Part shown: piece by piece, positions 4,948-19,600 of the stretch | How positions within the stretch are numbered: the first letter of the stretch is position 1 | Layout: every line of letters starts with the position of its first letter | From: a virus | Direction: 5' to 3' (one strand) | DNA: 29,317 nucleotides | Virus record (IMG/VR): IMGVR_UViG_3300030451_004519 | Location: 2,182 to 31,498 of that record | The notes under the pieces: generated by a model | What the model was told of the DNA's origin: nothing | The model's input: the letters and a program-made list of their open reading frames with translations, nothing else | Database searches by the model: none | Made by a program: the position numbers and the translations under genes

Positions 4948-6978
4948 TTATTTAGAAGTTTTTCTATCAACACCATCCCATTCACCTTCAGGCATTGGGC
5001 GACTAATTCTTTCTGCATATAAATCAGCAAGTGTATTATTCCATTTGTGTTCTCTGAGTATTGAGATTTGATGAGCACAATCACTCCACAACCTGTCTTG
5101 GTAAAAATCTACCATACGTTGTACAGTCCTTGCATACTTATGATTATCCAATATAGTGTAGATGCTGACAGGTTCTGTTTGTCCTTTTACAGCAACTTTG
5201 TCTAATAATACTGTGCCTTCGACACGTTGTATTTGTTTTAGTGTGTGTTCAGTAAACATAAAAAACACACCATATTCCTTAGTTTGTGCTTCTAATCTTG
5301 CGGCGAGGTTAACACTATCTCCGAGCACGGTATAGTCGAATCTCTGGTCACTTCCCATGTTACCAACAACAGCATCGCCAGTGTTAATACCGATACCAAT
5401 GTTGAGTTCAATGAGTCCTTGTTCACGTAGTTCCTTATTTAATTTTGCCAATGCTGGCTCCATAGCCCTTGCTGTATCAACGGCTTGTTGAGCATGGTCT
5501 TCTATATCTAACGGTGCTCCCCAAATTGCCATTAGAGCATCTCCAATATACTTGTCTATTGTTCCGTTCTTCTCCATAACTAAGTCTGTCATAGGTGTCA
5601 TGTATTTGTTAATTAGTTTGCCTAGTCCTTGTGGATCTGTTTTAAACTGTTCACTAATAGGAGTAAAGCCACGTATATCTGAAAACAAATATGTCATTGT
5701 TTTTGTTTCGCCACCTAACTGTAGCAGTTCTGGATTCTTTTGTAATTTTTTAACCATTGCTGGAGCAAGGTAATGTTCAAACTGTTTCTTAATTTGTTCA
5801 CGCAACTTAAACTGTATCCAAAAGTTATTGAAACTTGCTTGAGAAAATATTAAAAACGTTGCTAACACAGGAAATGTAGCATCAAATAAAACCAAATTAG
5901 CAGTATAAGAATGTACACTATAATATACAATTCCGCCCAAAATAGTAACTGTAGTTACTAATCCTGCCCATATAGGTAACTTATATATTGCAAGGGCAAC
6001 TAATATCATGCTCAACAAGGCGCCTAAGAGTTCATATAAAGCACTTAATTCATTTCGCTGTATGTTTGATCCATCTATAAAATTTTGTAGCATATGGCCC
6101 TGTATTTGTTGTGGATATAAGTTGCCACGTGGAGTTGGTACAGGATTTGCAATCCCTTCTGCTGTAACTCCTATAATAACAAATTTACCTGTAAGGTCTG
6201 GTAGGCTATTAAGGTCAGTATATTCTACTTCTTCAAACGTATTATTAAATCTTATAAATGCAGAACCGTCAGGTTGAGTAACAATAGGATCAAAAGGAGG
6301 TACTGCAAATTCTTGTATTCCAATTTCACTTGTCTTTAACATGTAACTAGGCTTCTGCGTAAACACCCTTAACATTTCAACAGCAAAACTAGGATAAATT
6401 TTATCACCTACTGTAATAGCAAGTGGGTATGTTCTTGTTTGATTGTCAGGTTGTGGTGCTGATGCTATTACACCTATGCCTTCTGCATGTTCTTCAATCG
6501 ATGGAATGTTTGTTACTAGATTGGGCCATTTTAGCAAAGATTGGGTCGGGTTTGAAGGTCCAATCGTCCCTGTGCCAATGTGAGGACCGGAACTCCGAAT
6601 TCCTTTTGAAGAGGGGGTCTGGGACAAAACTATCCCGTTTCCTTTGATCCAACTCGCTAGAATCTCGTCTCCTCCAAATCGATCCTTCTCTGGATACATG
6701 ATGTTGAACCCAATTATACCAGCATTCTTCTGTCTGATATCGTGTATCATCTGTGCATAATTCTGTCTCGGCCATGGATATTGTCCCCAATGTTGTAGGC
6801 TTTTTTCGCCAATGTTTATTATAGCAACTTCGTTGCTTTGTTTTACTTCATCAAATTGTTGTAAGTAATCGAATGTTTGCATTCGAAGACTTTGTAATGG
6901 TGTAGGGTCAGCAACTTTTAGTGCCGTAAGTAATAATATAGATATTGCTACGGCCCAGCCGCTGTATAACCATTTCAT
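4948..6978 (-). CDS. CHASE2-domain membrane adenylate cyclase (class III)
   Basis: A 676-residue sensor cyclase. The order is an N-terminal membrane helix (about 5-22), a periplasmic CHASE2 sensor domain (about 30-305), three membrane helices (about 310-380), and a class III catalytic domain (about 420-570). Catalytic residues are intact: metal-binding Asp434 (LFSDIRGFT) and Asp480 (YIGDALMAIW), substrate-binding Lys476, and Asn557/Arg561 (VNLAARLE). Thr550 (in YTVLG) replaces the usual adenine-specifying Asp, which is typical of class IIIb cyclases. It should convert ATP to cAMP in the cytoplasm in response to an external signal. The reading frame is open to an ATG at 7017, but that lies inside the terminator of the preceding gene and upstream of the late promoter, so I choose the ATG at 6978. 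Very unusual in a phage; the ~100 residues after the catalytic domain are unassigned. Confidence 0.93.
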   Translation of the reverse strand: MKWLYSGWAVAISILLLTALKVADPTPLQSLRMQTFDYLQQFDEVKQSNEVAIINIGEKSLQHWGQYPWPRQNYAQMIHDIRQKNAGIIGFNIMYPEKDRFGGDEILASWIKGNGIVLSQTPSSKGIRSSGPHIGTGTIGPSNPTQSLLKWPNLVTNIPSIEEHAEGIGVIASAPQPDNQTRTYPLAITVGDKIYPSFAVEMLRVFTQKPSYMLKTSEIGIQEFAVPPFDPIVTQPDGSAFIRFNNTFEEVEYTDLNSLPDLTGKFVIIGVTAEGIANPVPTPRGNLYPQQIQGHMLQNFIDGSNIQRNELSALYELLGALLSMILVALAIYKLPIWAGLVTTVTILGGIVYYSVHSYTANLVLFDATFPVLATFLIFSQASFNNFWIQFKLREQIKKQFEHYLAPAMVKKLQKNPELLQLGGETKTMTYLFSDIRGFTPISEQFKTDPQGLGKLINKYMTPMTDLVMEKNGTIDKYIGDALMAIWGAPLDIEDHAQQAVDTARAMEPALAKLNKELREQGLIELNIGIGINTGDAVVGNMGSDQRFDYTVLGDSVNLAARLEAQTKEYGVFFMFTEHTLKQIQRVEGTVLLDKVAVKGQTEPVSIYTILDNHKYARTVQRMVDFYQDRLWSDCAHQISILREHKWNNTLADLYAERISRPMPEGEWDGVDRKTSK

Positions 6979-6983
6979 AAAGA

Positions 6984-6991
6984 TATTTATC
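6984..6991 (-). promoter_or_regulatory. Late-type promoter GATAAATA before the cyclase
   Basis: GATAAATA (6991-6984) is followed by TCTTT and then the ATG at 6978. With T4 geometry the start point is the A of the ATG, giving a leaderless mRNA. A TTGACA lies 7 nt further upstream (7004-6999) but has no -10 box at the right distance. Confidence 0.7.
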
Positions 6992-7006
6992 GTATTTTTG
7001 TCAAGA

Positions 7007-7031
7007 AAAAGCGGCACATAGTACCGCTTTT
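7007..7031 (-). terminator. Rho-independent terminator after the lipoprotein gene
   Basis: AAAAGCGG (7031-7024 on the minus strand) pairs with CCGCTTTT (7014-7007) around a 9-nt loop, followed by more T. It lies 30 nt beyond the stop of the frameshifted product and just upstream of the cyclase promoter, so it separates the two units. Confidence 0.75.
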
Positions 7032-7060: not shown

Positions 7061-7171
7061 TTATTCGCACTCTTTTGGATTTTCTGAACAGTATTTCATT
7101 ATACTCTTAACAAGTATTTTGATATCTGCATCATCTATGCCATTCTTATCTGAATGGCTTATCCCTTTTTT
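7061..7171 (-). CDS. -1 frame extension of the lipoprotein gene (programmed frameshift product)
   Basis: Directly overlapping the end of the lipoprotein gene, the -1 frame is open for 34 codons (GISHSDKNGIDDADIKIL...CSENPKECE) and ends at TAA 7063-7061. It has no plausible start codon of its own except an internal ATG 12 codons from its end. The junction carries A AAA AAG in the lipoprotein frame (7171-7165), a 6-nt spacer and a perfect 7-bp hairpin. Frameshifting would give a protein of about 129 residues. The extension contains a D-x-N-G-x-x-D-x-x-D stretch reminiscent of a short calcium-binding loop, and two Cys near its end. The alternative is a homopolymer miscount of one A. Confidence 0.55.
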   Translation of the reverse strand, partial: KKGISHSDKNGIDDADIKILVKSIMKYCSENPKECE

Positions 7172-7183
7172 GCTTCGTTACCT
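7139..7183 (-). promoter_or_regulatory. -1 ribosomal frameshift signal
   Basis: Read on the minus strand: an SD-like AAGG ending at 7181; 9 nt; the slippery heptamer A AAA AAG (7171-7165) in phase with the lipoprotein codons GCA AAA AAG; 6 nt (GGATAA, containing the 0-frame stop); then GCCATTC (7158-7152), loop AGATAA, GAATGGC (7145-7139). This is the same arrangement as the dnaX-type signal of bacteria: slippery site, stem-loop and upstream internal SD. Confidence 0.65.
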
Positions 7184-7449
7184 TTTTCTTCGTCTTGCAA
7201 TTCGTCGGTTTGATTATCGATTTCTTCACTGACAGTTTCTATTACACCACTAGAGACTTTCGCCGCTGTTGCTGTAATATCTGACACATCTGTTAAGACT
7301 GCTGTACTAACTGTAGCAACACCTTTTACAGAACTATCAATTACACCTGTTGTGAAATCTTTCCCACCTTCAATAACTGCTCCAACTGAGGCACATGATG
7401 GTAGTAATACTAAACCAAGGACTCCAAGAAGTGAATACAATTTATTCAT
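7159..7449 (-). CDS. Small lipoprotein (0-frame product)
   Basis: A 96-residue precursor with a lipoprotein signal peptide: basic start, hydrophobic core and lipobox LLPSC (Cys19). The mature part is rich in Val, Thr, Ser and Ala (GVIDSSVKGVATVSTAVLTD) and looks amphipathic. It then ends in a very acidic, Glu-rich tail. Its size and make-up recall entericidin-like small lipoproteins or phage lysis lipoproteins, but I cannot assign it. The ATG has a clear CAGGAGAAG ribosome site and a 42-nt leader from the GATAAATA promoter at 7497-7504. The last codons form a -1 frameshift site, so a longer form probably exists too. A terminator follows. Confidence 0.85.
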   Translation of the reverse strand: MNKLYSLLGVLGLVLLPSCASVGAVIEGGKDFTTGVIDSSVKGVATVSTAVLTDVSDITATAAKVSSGVIETVSEEIDNQTDELQDEEKGNEAKKG

Positions 7450-7496: not shown

Positions 7497-7504
7497 TATT
7501 TATC
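7497..7504 (-). promoter_or_regulatory. Late-type promoter GATAAATA before the lipoprotein gene
   Basis: GATAAATA (7504-7497) is followed by TTATAG. The predicted start is near 7491, about 42 nt before the ATG at 7449, with an AGGAGA ribosome site between. It overlaps the intergenic space just after the 109-aa gene. Confidence 0.75.
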
Positions 7505-7515
7505 TTTATAACTGT

Positions 7516-7845
7516 TTATATTCTGTATTCGTGTATAGGGTCACCACCTAAACTATGTAGGTCATGATACCATAACTCTTGCAAAAGTAGTTTTCTTGTG
7601 GCTTCGTATTCTGTAGCATTGATTAATGCTATTAGATTATCTCTATTTGATTTTTCTACTTGATATGTTAATTCTATCCATTTATACAAAATATAAAATG
7701 TTGCAGGAACAAAAATTAAACCTATTGCAGTTTCTGGATAAAAATATGCAAATACTAAAAAGTGTAAACCAATTACAGTTGCTAGTTGAATATGTACAGA
7801 ACGTACATATTGCTGAATTCCGTTATTAACCTTTTCCTGCTTCAT
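7516..7845 (-). CDS. Small membrane protein, 109 aa
   Basis: A short basic N terminus is followed by two hydrophobic helices (around VHIQLATVIGLHFLVFAYFY and AIGLIFVPATFYILYKWI) and a charged C-terminal helix ending in HEYRI, so both ends are probably cytoplasmic. I do not recognise the family. The frame is open upstream to an ATG at 7875 and a TTG at 7896. The ATG at 7845 is preferred because the preceding 55-aa gene covers the upstream part and overlaps this start by 20 nt, pointing to coupled translation. It could belong to the lysis or membrane-remodelling functions, but nothing specific shows this. Confidence 0.65.
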   Translation of the reverse strand: MKQEKVNNGIQQYVRSVHIQLATVIGLHFLVFAYFYPETAIGLIFVPATFYILYKWIELTYQVEKSNRDNLIALINATEYEATRKLLLQELWYHDLHSLGGDPIHEYRI

Positions 7846-7993
7846 TAAAAATTTTTTCTTTGAACTCAGTGCCATGCCAATAACTATCCAATCCAATATC
7901 TACCATTAATGCAATTAATACTAAAGTCATAATTACACATAGGTAAAAATTAATAAACGCAGATATTTTCATCCACTTGATTAGATGTTTCAT
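7826..7993 (-). CDS. Small membrane protein, 55 aa
   Basis: A 55-codon gene starting MKHLIKWMKISAFINFYLCV, with one long hydrophobic helix (about residues 11-32) flanked by basic residues and a charged C terminus (HGTEFKEKIFNEAGKG). It is not a recognised family. The ATG has no ribosome site; it lies 6 nt after the TATAAT of an excellent sigma70 promoter, so the transcript should be leaderless. Its 3' end overlaps the next membrane-protein gene in a different frame. Support comes from the promoter geometry and overlap rather than homology. Confidence 0.65.
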   Translation of the reverse strand: MKHLIKWMKISAFINFYLCVIMTLVLIALMVDIGLDSYWHGTEFKEKIFNEAGKG

Positions 7994-8031: not shown

Positions 8032-8937
8032 TTAATCTTGCGTAATTGTTATAGAACATCCACCAGCAGTTTGGCATGTTTGATTAAGGTTGTAAGTTTG
8101 TGCTGTACCACTGTTTTGTGTTAAATTTAAAGTGGTCGGTTGTGATCCATACAAAGTAATATTGGCAGTATGAGCACCATTACCTTTTTGTACGCCACTA
8201 ATTTGACTGCCGTTTTGATAACTTTTATAGTTTACAGTTTTGTTTCCATCGTTAATTTGTTTCCACCAAATATCTTGATTGTTACCATATATCCATATAT
8301 TTGCAGTATGAAATCCTGGATTACTTGTGTTTCCATTTGTTTGATATCCAGCAATAACATTGTTGTCTCCATGATAGTCTAATATTACTTTATGTCCACC
8401 ATGCTCACTGCTATCGCCTTCGTTAAATGTTGTATCACTTATGTTGTTTAGTCCAACACCTTGACCCCATCTCATAAGATTGTTGTCTCCCCAAACGTGA
8501 AAACCTGCTTCTGAATATTGGCAACTTCCATCTTCTGTACATTTTTGTTTTATGTAAACATCATTGTCTACACCATCTATATCACCACAAAATGTTGCGT
8601 TTGGACAGTTTACTTTACCCCATGTACTAGTAAATCCAGCAAAATTATTTTGTCCTTCTTGTGCAATTTTTACTAGGTTACCATCACCTGATACTGAAAA
8701 TTCAACATCGTTATCTTCTCCTAGTTGTCCAATCCACATAGTTAAATTATCGACATTACCATATTGTAGTCCTAACTCCAAGTCAATGTGTTGCCCTTTA
8801 CCTTCTTGTAAAATTGTTAATTCTAAGTTGTCACCAACTTGGTCAATATGAACGTGGTTGTGTTCAGGTCCAGCAAATGCATCATAACTTGCTGTAGCAC
8901 AAAATATTGCTAATAATGTTCCTAATATATATTTCAT
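8032..8937 (-). CDS. Curlin-repeat protein B (secreted amyloid-like subunit)
   Basis: A 301-residue precursor with a signal peptide cleaved near ASYDAFA (residue 22). The mature protein is built of curlin-like strand-turn repeats with Q-x-G-x-x-N spacing, best seen at HIDQVGDNLELTILQEGKGQ, in DNLTMWIGQLGEDN, and in DGNLVKIAQEGQNN. Curlins such as CsgA/CsgB are exported through CsgG and form cross-beta fibres outside the cell. It is about twice as long as E. coli CsgA. It has three Cys pairs and ends in C-x5-C then SITITQD, an ending like those of the FecR-like protein and curlin A. Its ATG directly follows the FecR stop (TAGATG). Last gene of the operon; it could act as the nucleator or main subunit. 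Confidence 0.82.
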   Translation of the reverse strand: MKYILGTLLAIFCATASYDAFAGPEHNHVHIDQVGDNLELTILQEGKGQHIDLELGLQYGNVDNLTMWIGQLGEDNDVEFSVSGDGNLVKIAQEGQNNFAGFTSTWGKVNCPNATFCGDIDGVDNDVYIKQKCTEDGSCQYSEAGFHVWGDNNLMRWGQGVGLNNISDTTFNEGDSSEHGGHKVILDYHGDNNVIAGYQTNGNTSNPGFHTANIWIYGNNQDIWWKQINDGNKTVNYKSYQNGSQISGVQKGNGAHTANITLYGSQPTTLNLTQNSGTAQTYNLNQTCQTAGGCSITITQD

Positions 8938-10134
8938 CTAATCTACCTGTATGATTGTAATAAATGTTCCTTCACAATCATTTAAACATATTGTAGCATC
9001 TTTTAAATTACTATCTTCTACAAATATTTGGGCACTATTACCTGAATTTATTCTAACACTTACTGTATTTGTTACTTGTCTAAAAAAGAATAATTTACCA
9101 TCTTCTAAGACTGTGTTAAATTGTGTTTCAGGATCAAACCCTATTGCAGTACCTGTAATTTTATCTGCGGCTAATCTACCTTCAGATTCGCTACCACTAT
9201 CTCCACTATCTTCTTCTACACTTACTTCTTCTATTTCTTCAAGTAAGTCTTGTAAAAAATCAACGTCTAAAAAATTAATATCTAACGTTGAAAATTCTAA
9301 ATCTTCTGTTGTGTCTGCTAATACATCTGCTTCAATGGCATTAGCATCTAATCCGTCGAAGTCTAAGAGTCCAGCATCACCTTTTAATTGTTCTTGTTGT
9401 TCCTCTTTTGCTTCTACAATCTCTTCTGGCTCACTGACAATAAACATATTGTCTATCATATTCAAATCCAAATCTGCTAAAATAACAGGATTTGTTGGAG
9501 CCTGTTCATATGTACTAACCATAACAGCCTGAAAGGCTTCAGTTAATACTTGCACACCACCGTCATTTGTAATTGTTATACTACCCGATGGTCTGCAACC
9601 TTCCTCCAATTTTACTGTATCTGTACAGCCTGAGTCTGGTAATAGTATTACTAGACTTCTGCCTAACTCATCAACAGTAGTTGTAAAGTCAGTACCCCTA
9701 ATACCAATTGTGGCTGTAGGAGTTTGTACGACTATATTTTCCTTTGGCACCAATCCTAATCCACCAGTGGCAAAACGTGCCGTTCCTTGCACAAAATCTA
9801 ATGCCATCCTGCTTTTACTTGGATCAGGATCGTACACATAATCATTTATAATCATATATGTGTGTTCAGTTAAACTTACCTGTGTATCATCGACAAACTT
9901 TAATTTTAAACGACCGTTAACCGTTTCAACTTCGTCCATGCTTTGTATGTCTGTGTCTAGTTCTGCAATCAATCTTTCACCAGACGTTCTACTAATACTT
10001 CCGGGTGAGCCAACTTGCTCAAATACTCCGCCTATACTCTCATTGGCATAGGCGGAAATACTATATGTTGCACTAAACAGCAAAAATGTGTATAAGCAAA
10101 CTTTAGTCAGTTTGTCTGATACTAACCGAAGCAT
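8938..10134 (-). CDS. Secreted FecR-domain protein in the curli-like operon
   Basis: A 398-residue precursor with an N-terminal signal peptide (cleavage near residue 30, SISAYA). A FecR domain follows (about 35-200), with its hallmark TPTATIGIRGTDF at 138-150. Then comes a long acidic, low-complexity region (about 230-320) and a C-terminal beta segment ending CLNDCEGTFITIIQVD. Classical FecR spans the inner membrane and controls a sigma factor; here there is no cytoplasmic anti-sigma part and no sigma gene, so a periplasmic or exported structural role is more likely. The C-terminal Cys pair and QVD ending match those of both neighbouring curlins, suggesting the same export route. It overlaps the end of curlin A by about 32 nt. 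A GTG at 10140 is an alternative start. Confidence 0.83.
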   Translation of the reverse strand: MLRLVSDKLTKVCLYTFLLFSATYSISAYANESIGGVFEQVGSPGSISRTSGERLIAELDTDIQSMDEVETVNGRLKLKFVDDTQVSLTEHTYMIINDYVYDPDPSKSRMALDFVQGTARFATGGLGLVPKENIVVQTPTATIGIRGTDFTTTVDELGRSLVILLPDSGCTDTVKLEEGCRPSGSITITNDGGVQVLTEAFQAVMVSTYEQAPTNPVILADLDLNMIDNMFIVSEPEEIVEAKEEQQEQLKGDAGLLDFDGLDANAIEADVLADTTEDLEFSTLDINFLDVDFLQDLLEEIEEVSVEEDSGDSGSESEGRLAADKITGTAIGFDPETQFNTVLEDGKLFFFRQVTNTVSVRINSGNSAQIFVEDSNLKDATICLNDCEGTFITIIQVD

Positions 10135-10924
10135 TTTCACTATCTAAATCAACGTCAATTTTACCAGTACAGGCAGGAGTACACGATGCCGCATTACTTT
10201 GTAAAAATTGGAAATCACCATCTGAACCTACTAAAACAAATTTTAAGTAATGGTTAGAGTTACCAGTTTGATTTGATGTAATAGCATTATCGTCACCAGT
10301 AATGTTCATTTCCCAAGTTGCGGAACCGGCGTCAACCTTAACACCACTTTGTGAAAAAGCGGCAGTATTGTTCCAATCAGAACCAGGAGTACCACTCCAT
10401 GCTCTTGAGTTAGAAACAGCACTTCTAAAGTCGTTCCTGTCACCTAGTATTGTTAAATCCATATTGAGGTTGTCTGCGGCATAGTTACCACCAATATCTA
10501 CATCAAAAATGTTTGTATCACCTTGAACATTCCAAAGCATGTCAACATTATCTGCACTACCAGTTGCACCTATGTTTAAATCTAATGAATTAGAATCTCC
10601 TAAAAAGTAGAAATCCCATACAGTTGATCCAGAACCGTCTCCAGTCCATGCACCAAATATTTCATTACCATCACCGTCTTGAATGATATCAATAATCAAG
10701 TTAGATCCTGTAATAACTAAATCGCTACCATCAGAAGCATCACCTGATAATTTGTTACCACTACCAGCCTGTAATATAGTCAAAGTCAAATTATCACCTT
10801 GTTGGTCTAACAAAACTTCGTTATCGTCAGCACCTAAGGCAGGAGCAAAAATTCCAAGTCCTAGGCCCATAACAGCGAAGACATTGATTGCAAAATTTCT
10901 AAAGAAATTATTTTTAGTCTTCAT
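10103..10924 (-). CDS. Curlin-repeat protein A (secreted amyloid-like subunit)
   Basis: A 273-residue precursor with a signal peptide (cleavage near APALG, residue 31) and degenerate curlin repeats: VLLDQQGDNLTLTILQAGSG, then IIDIIQDGDGNEI, GDSNSLDL, GDTNIFDV, GDRNDF and GDDNAITSNQTGNSN. It is rich in Asn, Asp, Gly and Ser, and starts like curlin B (DQxGDNLxLTILQxGxG), so the two are paralogues. It ends C-x3-C, a spacer, then SVSIRQTD. The ATG at 10924 has an excellent GGAG site 6-7 nt upstream and overlaps the csgG stop by 11 nt; an upstream ATG at 10936 has no ribosome site. The product should pass through the CsgG pore encoded just before it. Confidence 0.82.
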   Translation of the reverse strand: MKTKNNFFRNFAINVFAVMGLGLGIFAPALGADDNEVLLDQQGDNLTLTILQAGSGNKLSGDASDGSDLVITGSNLIIDIIQDGDGNEIFGAWTGDGSGSTVWDFYFLGDSNSLDLNIGATGSADNVDMLWNVQGDTNIFDVDIGGNYAADNLNMDLTILGDRNDFRSAVSNSRAWSGTPGSDWNNTAAFSQSGVKVDAGSATWEMNITGDDNAITSNQTGNSNHYLKFVLVGSDGDFQFLQSNAASCTPACTGKIDVDLDSENASVSIRQTD

Positions 10925-11894
10925 TATTTTCTCCATTATTCTTTAAGAGCATTTTCTCCCAAAGTTTTTTATCGGCTTTGATGTCCTCTGGATCTATGTC
11001 TACTTTCATCCATGTTGCCTGTTCATCAGGAGAGAGTTCTTGAACTTCCCAGCCTTCCGGATAAACAATTTTCCAGTAACCCCTTTCATCGCCTTGTTGT
11101 ATCAATGCCAATACTGCGGCTTCAATAGCCGAACGTACTGCCCAAGTTACACTTTCATTCTCTGTCATACCACTTTCAAGTTCAAGAAGTTTTGTATCCA
11201 TATCTAAAAATCTAAACACATCGCCTCCTACACCTGTACTCAAAATGGTTTTGTATGTCTGTACGTTGAGTAACACTTCGCCAGTGAGTGTGCTTATGGC
11301 TCTCAGTGATACAACAACACTATCTCTTCGATATTGGTTTGTAGTTCCAATACCGAGATATCTTGCACCGTTACCGCCAGTCTCGATATTAGTATCATAA
11401 CCTATGATGCCTCCCTCTAATATCATGCCTGCGAATAACAATGGTTGGACTCCTTCTGCCGGTGCTTCTTCTGTGGCAAACTGTTCGCGAGTACTACGAA
11501 CAATTTGTCTTTCCCGGACAAGGTGGTCTAAGCCTACTCCTCTCTCTACGACTCTGAACCATGTGCCTTTAGGATTTTCTTTGGCACCTGCGGCTTTGAG
11601 AGAGTCAATTAATAAATCTTTTGCACCTTGTGTAACTGCGGTGCTGAAACTTGCAACTCCATCTGAACTTACTCTTTGTCCAGTTAAATCTGCAAAGTCA
11701 TAAACTGCAACCACTGGCATAACTTCAGCCGGTGGTAAGTTTCTTAATTTTTTATATGTGGGTAATTCTATAAATTGTGGTTCTTCTATACACTCAAGGA
11801 AATTTGAACCACAGGCTTTGTCACCAGGTATGGAAATACTGGCGCATCCGCTAATTAGCAAAGCAAATATTACTGCTATCAATCCTTGTTTCAA
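10914..11894 (-). CDS. csgG: CsgG-like outer-membrane curli secretion pore lipoprotein
   Basis: A 326-residue lipoprotein that follows E. coli CsgG along its length: lipobox LLISGC (Cys17), LPPAEVMPVVAVYDFADLTG, SFSTAVTQGAKDLLIDSLK, VVERGVGLDHLVRERQIVRS, LFAGMILEGGIIGYDTNI, GGNGARYLGIG, and the transmembrane-hairpin region up to KTILSTGVGGDVFRFLD. CsgG forms a nonameric channel in the outer membrane that exports curlins. It is about 50 residues longer than CsgG, with an acidic extra C-terminal tail and an inserted Cys-x7-Cys after the lipobox. The only possible start is TTG at 11894, since an in-frame stop lies four codons upstream. It starts 4 nt after the csgF stop and overlaps curlin A at its end. 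Confidence 0.95.
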   Translation of the reverse strand: MKQGLIAVIFALLISGCASISIPGDKACGSNFLECIEEPQFIELPTYKKLRNLPPAEVMPVVAVYDFADLTGQRVSSDGVASFSTAVTQGAKDLLIDSLKAAGAKENPKGTWFRVVERGVGLDHLVRERQIVRSTREQFATEEAPAEGVQPLLFAGMILEGGIIGYDTNIETGGNGARYLGIGTTNQYRRDSVVVSLRAISTLTGEVLLNVQTYKTILSTGVGGDVFRFLDMDTKLLELESGMTENESVTWAVRSAIEAAVLALIQQGDERGYWKIVYPEGWEVQELSPDEQATWMKVDIDPEDIKADKKLWEKMLLKNNGENNED

Positions 11895-11898
11895 ATTT

Positions 11899-12387
11899 TT
11901 ACCCGCCTAATGTTCCGATTCCGATAGGTATTTCTATTTCCGTAATTGTTCCATCTGCGTCAACAATAGTCAGTTTTATATATTCTATGCCGTCTACTGT
12001 AATTACCTGGTATGAGACGTTACTGTCTTCAATAGTAAATGCACCTTCGGTAGAATTAGTACAAGTTGGTACTTCTGCAGGATTACAAAACATACTATCA
12101 ACTAATCCTTTAGAAATTTGTGAATAGATCCTACTCTCCAAATTTCTAATAAATTTATTAATAGTGCTGTTAGATTCTGCTCTTTCAGCCGCCCTTAAAG
12201 CCGCTTCAATATCATCTCTTATTTTATCTTTTCTACTCTTCTCCTGATTTTCGATTGTTAAATAATGAGCTCCAGTTCCTATTCCACTAAAACTAGGGTT
12301 CTTAAATTTATGTGTAAGTTTGTCAGCAGATGCTGTCATACTGCCAAATGCAAACATTACAACTAAAAAATAATTTAAAATTTTCAT
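11899..12387 (-). CDS. csgF: CsgF-like curli assembly factor
   Basis: A 162-residue precursor with a signal peptide (cleavage near TASA, residue 21). The mature N terminus LTHKFKNPSFSG...HYL matches the CsgF segment (TFQFRNPNFGG in E. coli) that inserts into the CsgG pore and forms its second constriction. The middle is helical, and the C terminus ends in beta strands with a Cys-x7-Cys (FCNPAEVPTC) not present in E. coli CsgF. CsgF caps the pore and helps nucleate fibres at the surface. Its ATG overlaps the stop of the upstream small gene (ATGA), and csgG follows by 4 nt, so pore and cap are made together. Confidence 0.85.
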   Translation of the reverse strand: MKILNYFLVVMFAFGSMTASADKLTHKFKNPSFSGIGTGAHYLTIENQEKSRKDKIRDDIEAALRAAERAESNSTINKFIRNLESRIYSQISKGLVDSMFCNPAEVPTCTNSTEGAFTIEDSNVSYQVITVDGIEYIKLTIVDADGTITEIEIPIGIGTLGG

Positions 12388-12686
12388 TTCTTTTTCTTTT
12401 CAGCCTGCTCTTTTTCAGCAAGGGCCTCCTTTTCTTCTGCGTCCTGCAAAATTTCTTGTCGTGTTCTATATTCTAAAACTACGTCTACTTTCTGTTGCAA
12501 ACGAATTAAGTCTTGATCCAACATTCTTGTTTGGTCTATTACTCTAATAAGTGCCATATGCATTTTACCTAATGCGGGTTTTATTTCACTATTAATATAT
12601 TTCCATACATAGTAAATAAAGTACCCTAAGCCAACACAGGCAACGACTGGAAATCCATATTGAGAGATTAATTGTGCTACGTCCAT
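12384..12686 (-). CDS. Small membrane-anchored coiled-coil protein (paralogue 2)
   Basis: A 100-residue protein with one N-terminal membrane helix (QYGFPVVACVGLGYFIYYVW), then a charged, probably coiled-coil helix and a Lys/Glu-rich tail ending in KKKK. It is a paralogue of the gene just upstream: both begin with a short polar stretch, then GFP, a Gly/Ala-rich helix and GYFI. The fold plan resembles BhlA/YvrJ-type small phage proteins (holin-like), but no function is shown. The start overlaps the upstream stop (TAATG) with a strong AAGGAGAG site, and its stop overlaps the csgF ATG, so it belongs to the same coupled operon as the pore. Confidence 0.75.
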   Translation of the reverse strand: MDVAQLISQYGFPVVACVGLGYFIYYVWKYINSEIKPALGKMHMALIRVIDQTRMLDQDLIRLQQKVDVVLEYRTRQEILQDAEEKEALAEKEQAEKKKK

Positions 12687-12982
12687 TAATCTCTCCTTAC
12701 ATCGAGTTTTCCGTCCTCAATAAAGTTTTCTGCCCTGGCTACTCGTTCTATATCAGGTCTTAATTCCAAAGCAGAACTTACTAACATATCGATTTTAATC
12801 ATCTCATTGCTCATTGTTCTTGCTCTATTTTCTAATGATTCACAAAACTTAGTCAAAGTTTCGACCTGACCGACGACACCGGCCATTAATTGCTTAATTA
12901 TAATAAAGATAAAATAACCCATTACTATCGCTCCGGCAATAGGAAATCCTACCTCTGCTATTAATTGAAATACTTCGTTCAT
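12686..12982 (-). CDS. Small membrane-anchored coiled-coil protein (paralogue 1)
   Basis: A 98-residue protein: MNEVFQLIAEVGFPIAGAIV leads into a single membrane helix ending GYFIFIIIKQL, followed by a long helical region with regular hydrophobic spacing (LTKFCESLENRARTMSNEM). First gene of the curli-like operon. The frame also offers a GTG at 12988; the ATG at 12982 is chosen because it matches the start of its paralogue. A holin-like or membrane-scaffold role is possible (BhlA/YvrJ-like plan). Its coupling to csgF points instead to a partner of the secretion pore at the inner membrane. It follows a GATAAATA promoter with a leader of about 59 nt. Confidence 0.72.
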   Translation of the reverse strand: MNEVFQLIAEVGFPIAGAIVMGYFIFIIIKQLMAGVVGQVETLTKFCESLENRARTMSNEMIKIDMLVSSALELRPDIERVARAENFIEDGKLDVRRD

Positions 12983-13046
12983 TCGCACACTCTGTTTGTT
13001 ATATTTTTTATATGTAGTGTGATGTCTGTCTGTTACTCTACGCAGT

Positions 13047-13054
13047 TATTTATC
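13047..13054 (-). promoter_or_regulatory. Late-type promoter GATAAATA for the curli-like operon
   Basis: GATAAATA (13054-13047) followed by ACTGCG. The predicted start is near 13041, 59 nt before the first gene at 12982. It is the only good promoter seen for the seven-gene operon and faces away from a plus-strand GATAAATA at 13096. Confidence 0.75.
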
Positions 13055-13532: not shown

Positions 13533-16500
13533 TTACATCATATTTACTAATACTTCAATAATACCTTCGCCTGCATCTAAAGAACCAACTGCTTTACCAA
13601 TTATTCTACCTGGTTTTGCATCATTGTCTGCTTTAGCATGTCCTTTAACACCTGCACTTACTAACAAGTCACCTTTAACAACAGGACCAACCACTTTACA
13701 TGGTACTCTTCCTGTTAATGCAACATATTGTCCTTCGCTACCTGCGTTCATCATGTATGCTGGATCTGTTGATATAACACCTGCTACTCTGTGGTCTGCT
13801 TCTGTTTCACATGCACATATTTCTTTTTCTCCACCGAAACATACAACTGTGCCTGCTTCAAGTTCTTCATTGCTTTCGTATTTCTCAGCCAAATCCGCAT
13901 ATTGCGCCGATGTTGCTGTACCCTGAAAAGTAACTGCATATACTTCGTTATATCTGTTACTGCTACTACCTAAGTCAATACTGTTATCTGCACTTGGAGT
14001 TATTGTGCCACTATGTGTATCAGCGGCATCGCTTCTCAAGAAAGAAGTACTGTTTATACCATCTATTGTGCCTGCGTCAACTTCTAATGCGTTTATAAAT
14101 GATGCTGTAACTCTGGCATCAATAGCCGAGTTTGCTCTAGCAACTGTATAATATAAACTTGAACCTTCTGATAAATCACCAGTGTCAAATGCACCCATGT
14201 TTACCGACAATGTCGTACCACTTATAGTGATACCAGTACCTGCATCTAAGAATGCTGTACTACCTGCACTATCGTCCCAGAATAAAATTCTATCGTCATC
14301 TGGATCTGATAAACTTTCAAGTCCTAAATGACTAAGTGCTAAACTTACTGCACCACTTGAACCACCGCCAGTTAAACCAGTTCCTGCTGTAACACTTTCA
14401 ATATCACCAGCATCGTTAGTGAAACTAAATTCACCAGTTGAACTGTTATAACTTAGGTCTCCGCCTGCACTAAACAATCCTCTAACTGTTGAGTTATCAA
14501 GTGATAATGTAACACCACCTGATGTGCCACCACCTGATAGACCTGATCCTGCTGTAACACCTGTGATGTCACCAACATTAGTTGTAAAACCTGAATCGTT
14601 ACTAAATGCACTTAATCCAATTTCTGAAATTAGTTTACGTCTTTGTGAGCCATTATCTAGTAATACAAGTTCATCTTCTGAACTGTTTACTGCGGCTGTC
14701 ATATCTGTTAGTTCACTAAGGTCAACATCTACTTGGTCTGCTTGTACATCTAGCAATGCACCTGCTCCAACATTAAGTGTAACACCACCTGATGTGCCAC
14801 CTCCTGTTAAACCATCTCCAGCAGTAACGCCTGTAATGTCACCAACGTTAGTTGTGAATCCACTGTCATTGTTAAATGCACTAAGATTTATTTCACTAAT
14901 AAGTTTTCTTCTATCATCACCATTATCAAGCAAAATAAGTTCAGTATCTGAACTACTAACAGCATCTGTCATATCTGTCAGTGTACTCATATCAAGATTT
15001 ATTGTGACTGCACCTGAACTGCCGCCTCCTGATAATCCTGTTCCTGCTGTAACACTTTCTATGTCACCTGCGTCATTAGTAAAACTAATTACACCTGTTG
15101 ATGAATTATAACTTAAATCACCTGCAACACTAATTGCCGCTCTGGCTCTTGCAGTAGTGTGATATAAGTTACTTGAACCTTCTGAAAGACTGTCTGTGTC
15201 AGCCGCCGCTATTCTGGCATCTGCTCTTGCGTTTGTAAAGAATAAATTTGTTGATCCTTCTGTAATACCGTCGGAATCTTCGATAAGTTTTTTATAATTT
15301 GTTCCGTCGTTTGTAAATTCCCATTTATCATCTGTTTCATTATATCTAAAAAATACATCTGCACTTGATCCTCTATCAACTTGTAAACCTGCGTTTTCTG
15401 ATGGAGCACCACTTGTTCCGTAATTTAATGTGATAATATTATCTTCTAAATAAAGTGTTTCTGTATTTACAGTTGTTTGCGTTCCATTTACAGTTAAGTT
15501 ACCTGATAGTATTATGTCGTTTTGAAATGTTTTAGCACCGTTAATAGTTTGTGTTCCTGTAGTTCTAACTACTGTACTATCTACTGCTATTGCTCCTGAT
15601 GTAACATCTATACCTGAACCACCACTTACATATCCATCTATTACTGACCTACCTCTTGCAGTTGTGTGATATAAGTTAGTTGAACCTTCACTTAAATTGT
15701 CTGTATCAAAACTACCTAGTGATACTGTTAAATCAATCGCTCCGTCACCTGAGTCATCATATGATGCACTTATACCAGTGTGTGAGCCATTGGTGGCAAT
15801 CTGAGCACCTGCAATATCTTGAACTCTTTCTGTTGTATGGAAAAGGTTACTTGACCCTTCTGTGATATCATCTGAATCACCACTTAATTCACTAAGTGCA
15901 TCTTTGCCTGCTACTTGTGAGTCAACGTATGCCTTTGTTGCCGCATCTGTACTTGCACTTGGTGTACCTAAATTATTAATGTAATTACTGTTCAAGTTAA
16001 GGTTTGAACCCATTGTCAAACCACCTGTACCAGTTAATGTTTGTCCGCTATCTACTGTAATACCTGATTGTAAATTGATTACACCAGTACCACTTGCGTT
16101 TAATTCTATGTCACCTGAACCTGAAGTTATAATTCCTACGTTTTGGTTTGCGTTTGCACTAAATTGAATAGTACCTGAACTGTCACTTAATACTTGTTGT
16201 CCATTAACGTATAATGAACCTGGGCCAATATATACATCTTTCCACACACTTGTTGCACTACCTAGTGAATATGTGTTGTTTGCACTTGGTTCAAAGTTTG
16301 CTGTGAAACCTGTACCACTTGCTGTTTTATCAAAAAATGCATCGTTTACTGTTAAAGTAACTGCACCAGAAGTGCCTCCACCAGACAAACCATTGCCTGC
16401 TGTTACACCTGTAATGTCTCCTGATTCTAATTCTGAATATTTTGCTAGTCTATGTCCACCTGCTGTTGAACCATCGTGGACTCTAATGGTATCTAAATCT

Positions 16501-16586
16501 GTATCGACGGTAATCTCACCTACTAGTCCTGTGAATGAACTATGTTGGGCAGTTGTACCTCTTCTCCATTGGATTGCTGTTGCCAT
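13533..16586 (-). CDS. Repetitive tail-fibre / receptor-binding-type protein, 1017 aa
   Basis: The N terminus (WRRGTTAQHSSFTGLVGE...RVHDGSTAGGHRLA) is the short beta domain often found at the start of marine-phage fibre proteins. The shaft carries five copies of a unit like GDITGVTAGNGLSGGGTSG and five of a unit like DNLSEGSTNLYHTTARGR. The C-terminal ~200 residues start at SGTITPSADNSIDLGSSSNR, continue through QYADLAEKY and end in a domain with VAGVISTDPAYMMNAG and ALTGRVPCKVVGPVVKGDLL. That domain is shared with the next gene upstream and typical of marine T4-like fibres. Likely a trimeric fibre or fibre-associated structural protein that meets the host. A clear AGGAAG site and a leader of about 85 nt with a hairpin precede it. 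Confidence 0.8.
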   Translation of the reverse strand: MATAIQWRRGTTAQHSSFTGLVGEITVDTDLDTIRVHDGSTAGGHRLAKYSELESGDITGVTAGNGLSGGGTSGAVTLTVNDAFFDKTASGTGFTANFEPSANNTYSLGSATSVWKDVYIGPGSLYVNGQQVLSDSSGTIQFSANANQNVGIITSGSGDIELNASGTGVINLQSGITVDSGQTLTGTGGLTMGSNLNLNSNYINNLGTPSASTDAATKAYVDSQVAGKDALSELSGDSDDITEGSSNLFHTTERVQDIAGAQIATNGSHTGISASYDDSGDGAIDLTVSLGSFDTDNLSEGSTNLYHTTARGRSVIDGYVSGGSGIDVTSGAIAVDSTVVRTTGTQTINGAKTFQNDIILSGNLTVNGTQTTVNTETLYLEDNIITLNYGTSGAPSENAGLQVDRGSSADVFFRYNETDDKWEFTNDGTNYKKLIEDSDGITEGSTNLFFTNARADARIAAADTDSLSEGSSNLYHTTARARAAISVAGDLSYNSSTGVISFTNDAGDIESVTAGTGLSGGGSSGAVTINLDMSTLTDMTDAVSSSDTELILLDNGDDRRKLISEINLSAFNNDSGFTTNVGDITGVTAGDGLTGGGTSGGVTLNVGAGALLDVQADQVDVDLSELTDMTAAVNSSEDELVLLDNGSQRRKLISEIGLSAFSNDSGFTTNVGDITGVTAGSGLSGGGTSGGVTLSLDNSTVRGLFSAGGDLSYNSSTGEFSFTNDAGDIESVTAGTGLTGGGSSGAVSLALSHLGLESLSDPDDDRILFWDDSAGSTAFLDAGTGITISGTTLSVNMGAFDTGDLSEGSSLYYTVARANSAIDARVTASFINALEVDAGTIDGINSTSFLRSDAADTHSGTITPSADNSIDLGSSSNRYNEVYAVTFQGTATSAQYADLAEKYESNEELEAGTVVCFGGEKEICACETEADHRVAGVISTDPAYMMNAGSEGQYVALTGRVPCKVVGPVVKGDLLVSAGVKGHAKADNDAKPGRIIGKAVGSLDAGEGIIEVLVNMM
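13884..14388. repeat. Fibre 3' module shared with 17056-17985 (copy 1)
   Basis: Two blocks closely match the other fibre gene at DNA level. Block 13884-14044 matches 17056-17216 at a constant 3172-bp offset with few changes. Block 14186-14388 matches 17781-17985 at an offset of about 3595 bp. They encode the ADTHSGTITP...AQYADLAE region and the SLSDPDDDRILFWDDSAGST region. Confidence 0.85.
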
Positions 16587-16627
16587 TGTCGTATCTTCCT
16601 ATATAGTTTGTCTACATTTAGTGTAGT

Positions 16628-16649
16628 CTATACTCACGTCTGAGTATAG
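16628..16649. repeat. Perfect inverted repeat in the fibre leader
   Basis: CTATACTCA (16628-16636), loop CGTC, TGAGTATAG (16641-16649). It lies between the late promoter at 16677-16684 and the fibre start at 16586, so it would form a 9-bp hairpin in the mRNA leader. No T run follows on the minus strand, so it is not a normal terminator; it could be an RNA stability or translation element, or an operator. Confidence 0.7.
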
Positions 16650-16676
16650 TCAAAAGGATTACCTTTCATATAAGAG

Positions 16677-16684
16677 TATTTATC
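16677..16684 (-). promoter_or_regulatory. Late-type promoter GATAAATA before the 1017-aa fibre gene
   Basis: GATAAATA (16684-16677), then CTCTTA, just after the stop of the 1864-aa gene. Predicted start near 16671, leader about 85 nt. Confidence 0.75.
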
Positions 16685-16689
16685 TAGAT

Positions 16690-19600
16690 TTACTTGATAA
16701 GTGCTTCTACAACGCCTGTAGTGCTGGTTAAGTTTTCACTTATAGCAATACCTATTGCACTTGCACCTGCATGGTATCCGTGGAATGGAGCCGCTTTAGC
16801 ATGACCAGGAGTACTACTTGCAATCAGCACATCTCCTTTTCTAACAGGACCTGTAACTTTTACAGGTACTCGACCTTTAAGTGCAACTGTTACAACATTG
16901 TCACCTTCTAGTCCTGCATTCATTAAGTATGCTGGGTCGGTACTAACAACACCTGCTATTGCTGGACTATTTTCTTTAGTTACTTCTGTAACTTCAGCAC
17001 TTCCGCCTATAACAACTACTGTACCTGCATCGTAAGGTTTGTCTGCAACATAGTTCTCTGCCAAGTCCGCATATTGAGCCGCTGTTGCTGTACCTTGGAA
17101 TGTTACTGCATAAACTTCGTTATATCTATTACTGCTACTACCTAAGTCTATGCTATTATCTGCGTTTGGAGTGATTGTGCCACTATGTGTATCTGCCGCA
17201 TCGCTTCTCAAGAATGAACTAGCATGTAAACTATCAACTGTATCTGCATCTACACTCAAAGCATCAACAAAACTGTTTGTTACTCTTGCATCTATGGCAC
17301 TATTTGCTCTAGCAACTGTGTAATATAAATTAGTTGAACCTTCACTTAAATTATCTGTGTCAGCAGTTACAAAGTCTCCTGTAACTTCTAAGTTACCTGT
17401 AACTTTTGCACCACCGTCTACAGTTTCTAATGTAACATTATTGTTATAGTATATTGATTGTCCTGCACCTGAGTTAGTTGCTATACTTGTTTTTGTACCA
17501 TTTGCATTTGTAATATAAGTTGTACCAGAACGTATGAATATACTTCCTGTACCAACATCTGTGATAAAACTGTTATTACCATCGTGGTATATTTCTAAAT
17601 CTGGTCCATCACCAAATAATGCTTTTTCATTATCACCATATAAAATATTGTGACCGTTAATGTCTAAGTTACCACCTAGTTGTGGAGTTGTATCTTCTGA
17701 TAGATTGTTAATACTAATTGCTTGAACTCTTGCGTCTGTATAATATAAATTAGTTGAGCCTTCTGATAAATTATCGGTGTCAAATGCACCCATGTTCACT
17801 GACTGAGTTGAGCCACTTATCTGTAAGCCTGTTCCCATATCTAGGAATGCAGTACTGCCTGCACTATCATCCCAAAATATAATTCTATCATCATCTGGGT
17901 CTGATAAACTTTCAAGTCCTAAATGGCTAAGTGCTAAACTAACCGCACCACTTGAACCACCACCTGATAATCCTGTACCAGCAGTAACACCTGTAATGTC
18001 ACCAACGTTAGTTGTAAAGCCGGAATCATTATTAAATATACTTAGACCAATTTCGTTTGCCGCTTTTCTTTTCTCGCCAGTTCCACTATCAAGTATAATG
18101 AACTCATCAGTGTTATCCATTGTGCCTGTCATGTCATCGAGTTCACTAAAGTCTAAGTCTAAAGTAACTGTGCCTGCAACACCTCCGCCTGATAAACCAT
18201 TACCAGCAGTAACACCTGTTACTGTACCACCAATTGCAGTTACGTCTTTGAAAGTTATTGCACCATTACCGTCTGTACTTAATACCTGATTATTTGTACC
18301 ATCTGATGTTGGTAATGTGTATGCTCCTGCAATAGTAACATTACCAGGAGATATATTACCATCATAATCTAGTATGGCGGCATTTGCTCTTGCTGTTGTA
18401 TAGTATAAGTTATCACCTTCTGTAATATCAGTTGTGGTTAAACTTTCGCTAACTGTAATAGTTGCGTTTGCGTCATCATAAACTACATTTATATTACCAG
18501 AGCCTGCTAATATACTACCAACTCTATCGTCAATGTTTTCATTTGGTACTGTAAATGTTAATGTGCCTGCGGCATCATCATATGTTTTAACAATGTTTAC
18601 ACCTGCAACAATTAAGTTTGCAACTCTATCATCTACACGTTCGTCTGTGTAATATAAACTTGAACCTTCAGTTAAATTATCTGTAGTATTATTTCCTAAA
18701 GCAACATTTGCCTGTGCTTGTACTTCACTGTTAGTTAGAGTAATTTCATTAGCACTTGCAGTAATACCATATCCGCCTACAACATTTAATGTTGCATCAC
18801 CTGATGTGCCACCGCCTGTTAAACCGTCTCCTGCAATAACACCTGTAATATCACCTATATTATCTGCATCAATTGTAAATGAATTTGCGGCATCATCATA
18901 TGTTACTGTGATGTTTGCACCACCAACTACAAATCCTCCACCTATTCTATCTTCTAGTGCTTCGTTGAAGTCACTAACTTGTGATGCAGTAATACTAATT
19001 GCTTGTTGGCTAGCCGCTGTTAATTGTCCTTGAGCATTGACAGTAAATGTAGGTGTTTGTGATGCTGTACCATAAGTTGAAGCAGTTACACCTGTATTTG
19101 AAATTTCAATATCATTTGCATTTGCAGTTATACCTGTACCACCAACTATATCTAATGTTACGTCTCCTGCTGTTCCGCCACCTGTTAAACCTGCACCTGC
19201 TGTGACACCTGTGATGTCACCTGCTAGGTCGGCGTCTAATGTTAATGTGCCTGCGGCATCATCATACGTTGCAGTAACATTTGCTCCACCTACAATTAAA
19301 CTTGCTACTCTGTCGTCTACTCTTTCGTTTGTAAAATATTGATTTGTTCCTTCTGTAATATCATCAGTTGTTAAGGTTTGAGTTAAAACACCTGTAGAGT
19401 TATTATATCCTAAATTTGCACTACCTGAACTAATGGCACCTCTTGCCACTGATGTAACATGACTGTCATCTATTGCAAGACTTATAACATTACTTGCATT
19501 TATGCTGTCAGTAATACCATCTCCTACTGAGAGTTGATGCATAAACGTTGTGCTACCTGATGCACTTGCAAGTTGATATTCACCTGAACCGTCACCTAAA

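Follow-up and report, generated by a model that had tools for sequence, protein, structure and literature searches.

What does a membrane-bound sensor cyclase do in the genome of a T4-like phage? The question is raised by one gene in a 29,317-nucleotide stretch of viral DNA (IMG/VR record IMGVR_UViG_3300030451_004519, positions 2,182 to 31,498; hereafter the window). The original prediction described this gene as a CHASE2 adenylate cyclase under its own late promoter, held that no well-described T4-like phage was known to carry such an enzyme, and suggested that the phage raises host cAMP late in infection. Our analysis bore out the description of the gene itself, an active-looking class III cyclase with CHASE2 and four helices that is preceded by a late promoter and is not the product of an assembly join. 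The claims of novelty and of altered carbon use were not borne out. We found that the cyclase belongs with a curli/FecR export cluster (8032-12988), which had been overlooked. We lean towards the view that it is a late-expressed receptor adenylyl cyclase in a phage surface-export module, where it would couple fibre export to cAMP synthesis.

The gene encodes a CHASE2 class III cyclase

The gene and the elements directly upstream of it are:

4948..6978, minus strand: CHASE2 transmembrane class III adenylyl cyclase, 676 aa (frame, Pfam, alignment, AlphaFold2 model)
6984..6991, minus strand: predicted T4-type late promoter, GATAAATA, occupying exactly positions -13 to -6 relative to the cyclase ATG (motif scan; -13/-6 rule from the accessible text of PMC1524935)
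7008..7030, minus strand: putative hairpin resembling a terminator, with a stem of 7 bp, a loop of 9 nt and a T run; it precedes the cyclase promoter (found by eye)

The minus-strand frame is uninterrupted over 4948-7017, which allows a longer, GTG-initiated form of 689 aa. We prefer the ATG at 6978 as the start, because the N-terminus MK(W/F/Y)(L/I) is common to the relatives and the promoter lies 13 nt upstream. Pfam matched CHASE2 (7e-38) and Guanylate_cyc (2.5e-20; 73.3 bits against a cut-off of 21.9), both above cut-off, and CHASE2 (28-335 of the 689-aa frame) is flanked by one membrane helix on its N-terminal side and three on its C-terminal side. As predicted, the class III catalytic set is complete: D434, K476, D480, T550, N557 and R561 (window numbering), which we take to be the two metal-binding Asp, the Lys and Thr/Asp for adenine, the Asn and the Arg.

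The AlphaFold2 model (pLDDT 86.5, pTM 0.61) has long helices at 7-23, 312-333, 336-361 and 368-401 of the 676-aa form, consistent with the four membrane helices proposed; a plain hydropathy scan at one threshold picked up three of the four. The catalytic domain of this predicted model matched CyaC, CyaB and Cya2 with TM-scores of 0.82-0.88 over the target domain. A phytochrome-cyclase chimera was also among the fold neighbours, and a sequence search of solved structures returned the same names. Judged from its sequence, the protein looks able to act as a class III adenylyl cyclase.

A predicted late promoter lies at a fixed distance from the start codon

GATAAATA was found eight times in the window against a first-order expectation of about two, and all eight copies are intergenic, although intergenic DNA makes up 6.8% of the window. 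According to the accessible text of PMC1524935, the late element of T4 occupies positions -13 to -6 relative to the start of transcription, and CTAAATA of Aeh1 begins at -12; NATAAATA is used by cyanophages (PMC2984593, accessible part). The spacing at the cyclase was compared across 64 of 80 loci (best 80 of 210 relatives), the 16 others being excluded since the gene start was absent. NATAAATA stood at exactly -13 of the cyclase ATG in 58/64, with variable DNA further upstream, and was replaced by ACTAAATA at the same position in three more. The remaining three (L069, L071, L076) had no motif, and there the cyclase follows close behind a curlin-type gene. These findings agree with the original prediction of a private late-type promoter.

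With the motif at -13 and T4 late-element spacing, the cyclase message is predicted to start at the A of its AUG, i.e. as a leaderless late mRNA. The 250-kb relative discussed below (G001; pieces L105-L117) contains 50 GATAAATA sites, and a downstream ATG frame was assigned for 45 of them. The distance to this ATG was never below 13 and was exactly 13 in 10/45, suggesting that leaderless late genes may form a class in this jumbo phage. The hairpin at 7008..7030 was outside the automatic scan, as its loop is too long. Sigma-70 promoters in the region were uninformative (36 found, 37.2 expected).

The cyclase belongs with a curli/FecR cluster in a jumbo phage lineage

Upstream of the cyclase, the window contains the following features:

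7159..7449, minus strand: small lipoprotein-like protein, LLPSC near the N-terminus, with its own GATAAATA at 7504
7516..7896, minus strand: membrane protein of unknown kind, 126 aa as listed (frame list, Pfam, hydropathy)
8032..8937, minus strand: curlin-like protein 2 (Curlin_rpt 0.0025 and CsgB model 8.1e-8, both below cut-off; C-terminal strand motif)
8938..10140, minus strand: periplasmic FecR-domain protein with curlin-like C-terminal strand (FecR 1.2e-9; motif)
10103..10936, minus strand: curlin-like protein 1 (Curlin_rpt 0.00028, above cut-off)
10914..11894, minus strand: CsgG outer-membrane curli secretion channel (Pfam 1.2e-45)
11899..12387, minus strand: CsgF (Pfam 3.4e-13)
12384..12686, minus strand: tm2, 100-aa small membrane protein (holin-like PHROG)
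12686..12988, minus strand: tm1, 100-aa small membrane protein, paralogue of tm2 (holin-like PHROG)
13047..13054, minus strand: predicted late promoter, GATAAATA, preceding the curli operon (motif scan)

CsgF, CsgG, curlin, FecR and cyclase, which together mark the pelagiphage curli/FecR/cyclase module, were thus all found in one region of the window, surrounded by T4-type head genes (gp23, protease, portal) and gp15. The window capsid protein is 69% identical to those of PA5oct-type jumbo phages and 37-39% to those of the pelagimyophages HTVC008M and Melnitz. The same module is present in a relative, a contig of 250,519 bp whose capsid protein shows 86% identity to that of the window. From these identities and this relative, the carrier is a PA5oct-like jumbo T4-like lineage, distinct from the pelagimyophages in which the module has been reported.

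In the accessible text of PMC9599517 a histidine kinase is named ahead of CsgF. No kinase domain was found by Pfam in tm1 or tm2, which occupy the operon head where a histidine kinase was expected, and the tm-family proteins of the window, HTVC008M, Melnitz and L085, whose lengths range over 83-115 aa, likewise have none. We infer that the tm family corresponds to the genes so named in that part of the paper.

Elsewhere in the window, tRNA-Ala and tRNA-Ser genes are present at 856-1306; the frame listed at 856-1200 probably starts further in, since its listed start falls inside or ahead of tRNA-Ala. The two very large tail-fibre-like proteins at 13533-22284 probably share a part, as they match the same places in two relatives.

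FecR is constant while the exporter varies

FecR is encoded in every one of the 30 viral loci, drawn from three groups, whose upstream sequence reaches 8 kb or more; their exporter was curli in 23 and type I-like in 7, with both in none and neither in none. With 4 kb upstream, FecR was found in 51/54 loci, and no exporter was visible in six jumbo loci. One locus combines a type I-like set with a reversed curli set. Through L085/L086, a relative found on a MAG contig, we reached another viral group (best 80 of 302 relatives). HlyD precedes the cyclase in 37/80 of its loci, many of which end before further genes would be visible. Type I-like loci have upstream, where visible, a 248-aa protein, a TolC-like protein and a long FecR protein (8 loci; 1009-1707 aa when complete), and two small membrane proteins usually follow the cyclase.

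An alternative viral module without curli is seen at L086:2315-12470 and in L176-L255: FecR-adhesin, TolC-like protein, HlyD, CHASE2 cyclase and twin small membrane proteins. No mention of this variant was found in the accessible part of PMC9599517, and a literature search on type I secretion in pelagiphages brought up a single unrelated review, though the variant may already have been published. The contigs L092, L094, L096 and L085 appear to be phage sequence binned in error into MAGs with the titles Pelagibacter, Neomarinimicrobiota, Flavobacteriaceae and Rickettsiales. Conversely, the Acinetobacter phage MD-2021a records (L003) look bacterial because chromosomal isc and mfd genes lie beside the cyclase match, and these contigs were dropped as phage.

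The small membrane proteins raise the possibility of a role in lysis timing, in which the cyclase, two holin-like proteins and the CsgG pore would set the moment of lysis. The tm proteins match PHROG 4898 'holin' (4/9 members, best 1.1e-6), belong to the same module and directly follow the cyclase in the type I-like variant; moreover, the paper on Melnitz suggests that the curli pore acts in lysis (PMC9004378, accessible text). The other 5/9 members miss the holin model at 0.01, however, there is no link between cAMP and holins, and the CsgG pore is absent beside the cyclase in type I-like variants, so that we regard this explanation as doubtful.

FecR is the probable partner of CHASE2

Strong cyclase-profile matches were obtained in 57/142 alphaproteobacterial genomes. 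In 6/20 alphaproteobacterial loci (some contigs end early) a FecR gene lay within 300 bp of the CHASE2 cyclase, as it did in L087 and L093. These FecR proteins are mostly long, and that of L087 has cadherin, Ig and nidogen-like domains. Neither CsgG nor curlin was detected near the FecR-CHASE2 pairs of the six loci, L087 and L093. Since FecR adjoins bacterial cyclases with no curli genes nearby, FecR-CHASE2 is probably the older pair.

A curlin-like C-terminal strand motif was found at 54/62 distinct curli-type FecR ends and 69/97 curlin ends, against 0/6 for FecR-adhesin, 0/45 for CsgG, 3/35 for CsgF, 0/37 for nudix, 0/22 for HlyD, 0/12 for TolC-like proteins and 6/168 background frames; the contrast is exploratory, as the motif is short and was picked after inspection of some of the ends. 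The model of the window FecR protein was confident for the FecR domain only, with a poor C-terminus (mean pLDDT 58).

No known reader of the cAMP was found

The Pfam cNMP_binding domain was detected neither in the 20 window proteins scanned nor in 18 phage records, many of them fragmentary, and a phage-encoded cAMP receptor was dropped as a candidate. On the host side we used 58 genomes of 1.0-1.6 Mb belonging to the same order as G011, whose MAG title is Candidatus Pelagibacter. PF00027 (cNMP_binding) matched in 4/58, in frames of 870-1002 aa, and none of the 58 had a cNMP-binding domain of CRP size; the two translated matches resembled, by eye, an acyltransferase-type and an ABC-transporter-type protein. 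PF00211 (Guanylate_cyc) matched in 1/58, and this was the phage-like contig itself. On these counts from the 58 genomes, a SAR11 cyclase or CRP was rejected. As positive controls, E. coli matched the PF00027 search and Caulobacter both the PF00027 and the cyclase searches. With no receptor in the phage records and none of CRP size in the Pelagibacter-titled order, the cAMP output has no known reader.

These results bear on the original prediction that the phage raises host cAMP, perhaps to redirect carbon use, which would act through host CRP. The cyclase looks active and is apparently expressed late, but a CRP-type receptor is needed and none was seen on either side. With a host survey that covered the Pelagibacter-titled order, we consider the idea improbable and so far unsupported. 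If Pelagibacter-type hosts are infected, phage cAMP would meet no known receptor, and if SAR11-type hosts truly have no CRP, its reader would be new biology.

It is very unlikely that the enzyme serves counter-defence, or jams a cyclic-nucleotide defence as a Pycsar-like cyclase might. The catalytic domain does match the PADLOC PycC models (best 1.5e-30), but these are class III cyclases and match any such domain. In addition, no effector with a cNMP-binding domain was found among the 20 window proteins scanned or in the 18 phage records, the cyclase is in fixed linkage to export genes, and a CHASE2 sensor is not expected in a decoy. Membership of Pycsar was rejected.

The cyclase is conserved and under purifying selection

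In the viral loci retrieved (best 80 of 210 relatives) an opposite-strand nudix gene lies downstream of the cyclase in 80/80, and gp15 and gp14 also follow in most. An assembly join at the cyclase is ruled out by this synteny, in line with the original prediction. The complete set of six catalytic residues, with either S or T at position 550, is preserved in 236/238 viral cyclases from three groups, a count of 234 of 240 loci plus four references from which six loci with <430 aa of the gene were left out; identical loci are still present in some of our counts. The exceptions are one sequence gapped there and Melnitz (D550, S557), which has lost the transition-state Asn, and full activity may thus be dispensable in one lineage.

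Median dN/dS in the jumbo group was 0.075 for the catalytic part, 0.130 for CHASE2 and 0.118 for the whole gene (simple counting method, saturated pairs dropped, leaving 2310, 2145 and 2247 of 3160 pairs, respectively). The sequences thus show an intact catalytic site under purifying selection. In the cyclase tree 28 viral rows were cleanly split from 39 cellular rows (SH-aLRT 100); the cellular rows are Alphaproteobacteria and a few genome contigs, so the split says nothing on other classes, and L085, L092, L094 and L096 were labelled viral from their neighbours (L085 also from viral-contig relatives).

That the cyclase is a passenger, brought in with the module from a bacterium and of no use to the phage, is the least credible explanation, for although FecR-CHASE2 pairs are bacterial, the low catalytic dN/dS, the near-universal catalytic set and the private promoter kept in the jumbo lineage all argue against it.

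Proposed role

Our preferred reading, a receptor cyclase coupling fibre export to cAMP synthesis, would work as follows. Late in infection the phage would make an exporter and its polymer (CsgG, CsgF and two curlin-like proteins), the periplasmic FecR-domain protein alongside them, and the inner-membrane cyclase from its own late promoter. The FecR protein, whose C-terminus resembles a curlin strand, may read the state of the export or fibre machinery. It may then pass this state to CHASE2, which would set cAMP output by analogy with the outer-membrane control seen in Sinorhizobium. The reading draws on the intact site under purifying selection, CHASE2 between helices, the fixed-spacing late promoter and the constant linkage to FecR and an exporter, as these appear in the sequences. 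Points against it are the lack of a known cAMP reader, the shortness of the C-terminal motif, the minority of bacterial loci with adjacent FecR (6/20) and S557 of Melnitz.

A broader and rather speculative extension is that marine phages share an exchangeable export-surveillance cassette, with a constant core of FecR, CHASE2 cyclase and twin small membrane proteins plus either a curli or a type I-like adhesin exporter. FecR would be joined to the growing amyloid through its curlin-like C-terminal strand, and cAMP would act in CRP-less cells, hence through an undescribed receptor. In ocean phages as widespread as these, cAMP from a sensor seemingly tied to fibre export would let a virus gate the surface or fate of its host cell in an unusual way. 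As HTVC008M and Melnitz are cultured relatives, the question is open to experiment.

Comparison with known systems

The closest precedent is the pelagiphage curli (T8SS) cluster of HTVC008M and Melnitz, described in PMC9599517, PMC7029224 and PMC9004378, all cited here from their accessible parts. It has the same order: CsgF, CsgG, curlin, FecR, curlin, cyclase. PMC9599517 reports the curli module with cyclase and FecR in Pelagibacter podo- and myoviruses, discusses the adenylate cyclase in phage curli clusters, and favours an alphaproteobacterial origin with transfer across viral families. PMC7029224 reports CsgF/CsgG and proposes 'sibling capture'. The word 'cyclase' does not occur in the accessible main text of PMC7029224 or PMC9004378, and CHASE2 is not named in what is accessible of the three. 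The cyclases of HTVC008M (annotated 'adenylate/guanylyl cyclase') and Melnitz are 38% and 35% identical to the window cyclase, which is therefore a relative of an already reported phage cyclase and not unprecedented among T4-like phages. The window differs from these phages in its lineage, as the capsid identities indicate, and in having the cyclase apart from the operon behind its own late promoter; other relatives of the window cyclase have a type I-like exporter, which the accessible parts of those papers do not mention.

Sinorhizobium CyaD1, CyaD2 and CyaK are likewise inner-membrane proteins in which CHASE2 is joined to a class III catalytic domain. Their signalling starts at the outer-membrane barrel NsrA, and removal of CHASE2 from CyaD1 leaves cAMP synthesis constitutive (PMC13001267, PMC7529298, PMC5498481, accessible parts), so the likeness may extend to outer-membrane to inner-membrane signalling. 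They differ in being bacterial genes with a CRP-type reader (Clr) and NsrA as receptor, whereas the phage cyclase has FecR and curli and no known reader. In the Burkholderia BiofilmReg operon, according to the accessible text of PMC5192318, a periplasmic FecR-LysM protein likewise stands beside a CHASE2 sensor and is linked to biofilm, but the output is a histidine kinase with a response regulator and not cAMP. Spirulina CyaC, Pseudomonas CyaB and Cya2 have the catalytic-domain fold in common (TM-score 0.82-0.88, as above) and differ in their regulatory domains; Cya2 is titled a guanylyl cyclase.

Set against these systems, what appears new is the PA5oct-like jumbo carrier, the cyclase's own predicted late promoter at -13, the constancy of FecR with either curli or a type I-like exporter, the curlin-like strand at curli-type FecR ends, and the lack of a cNMP-receptor domain in the 18 phage records and of one of CRP size in the 58 genomes of the Pelagibacter-titled order. 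The cyclase is real; it is ordinary as a relative of a reported enzyme, and less ordinary in its lineage, promoter and neighbours.
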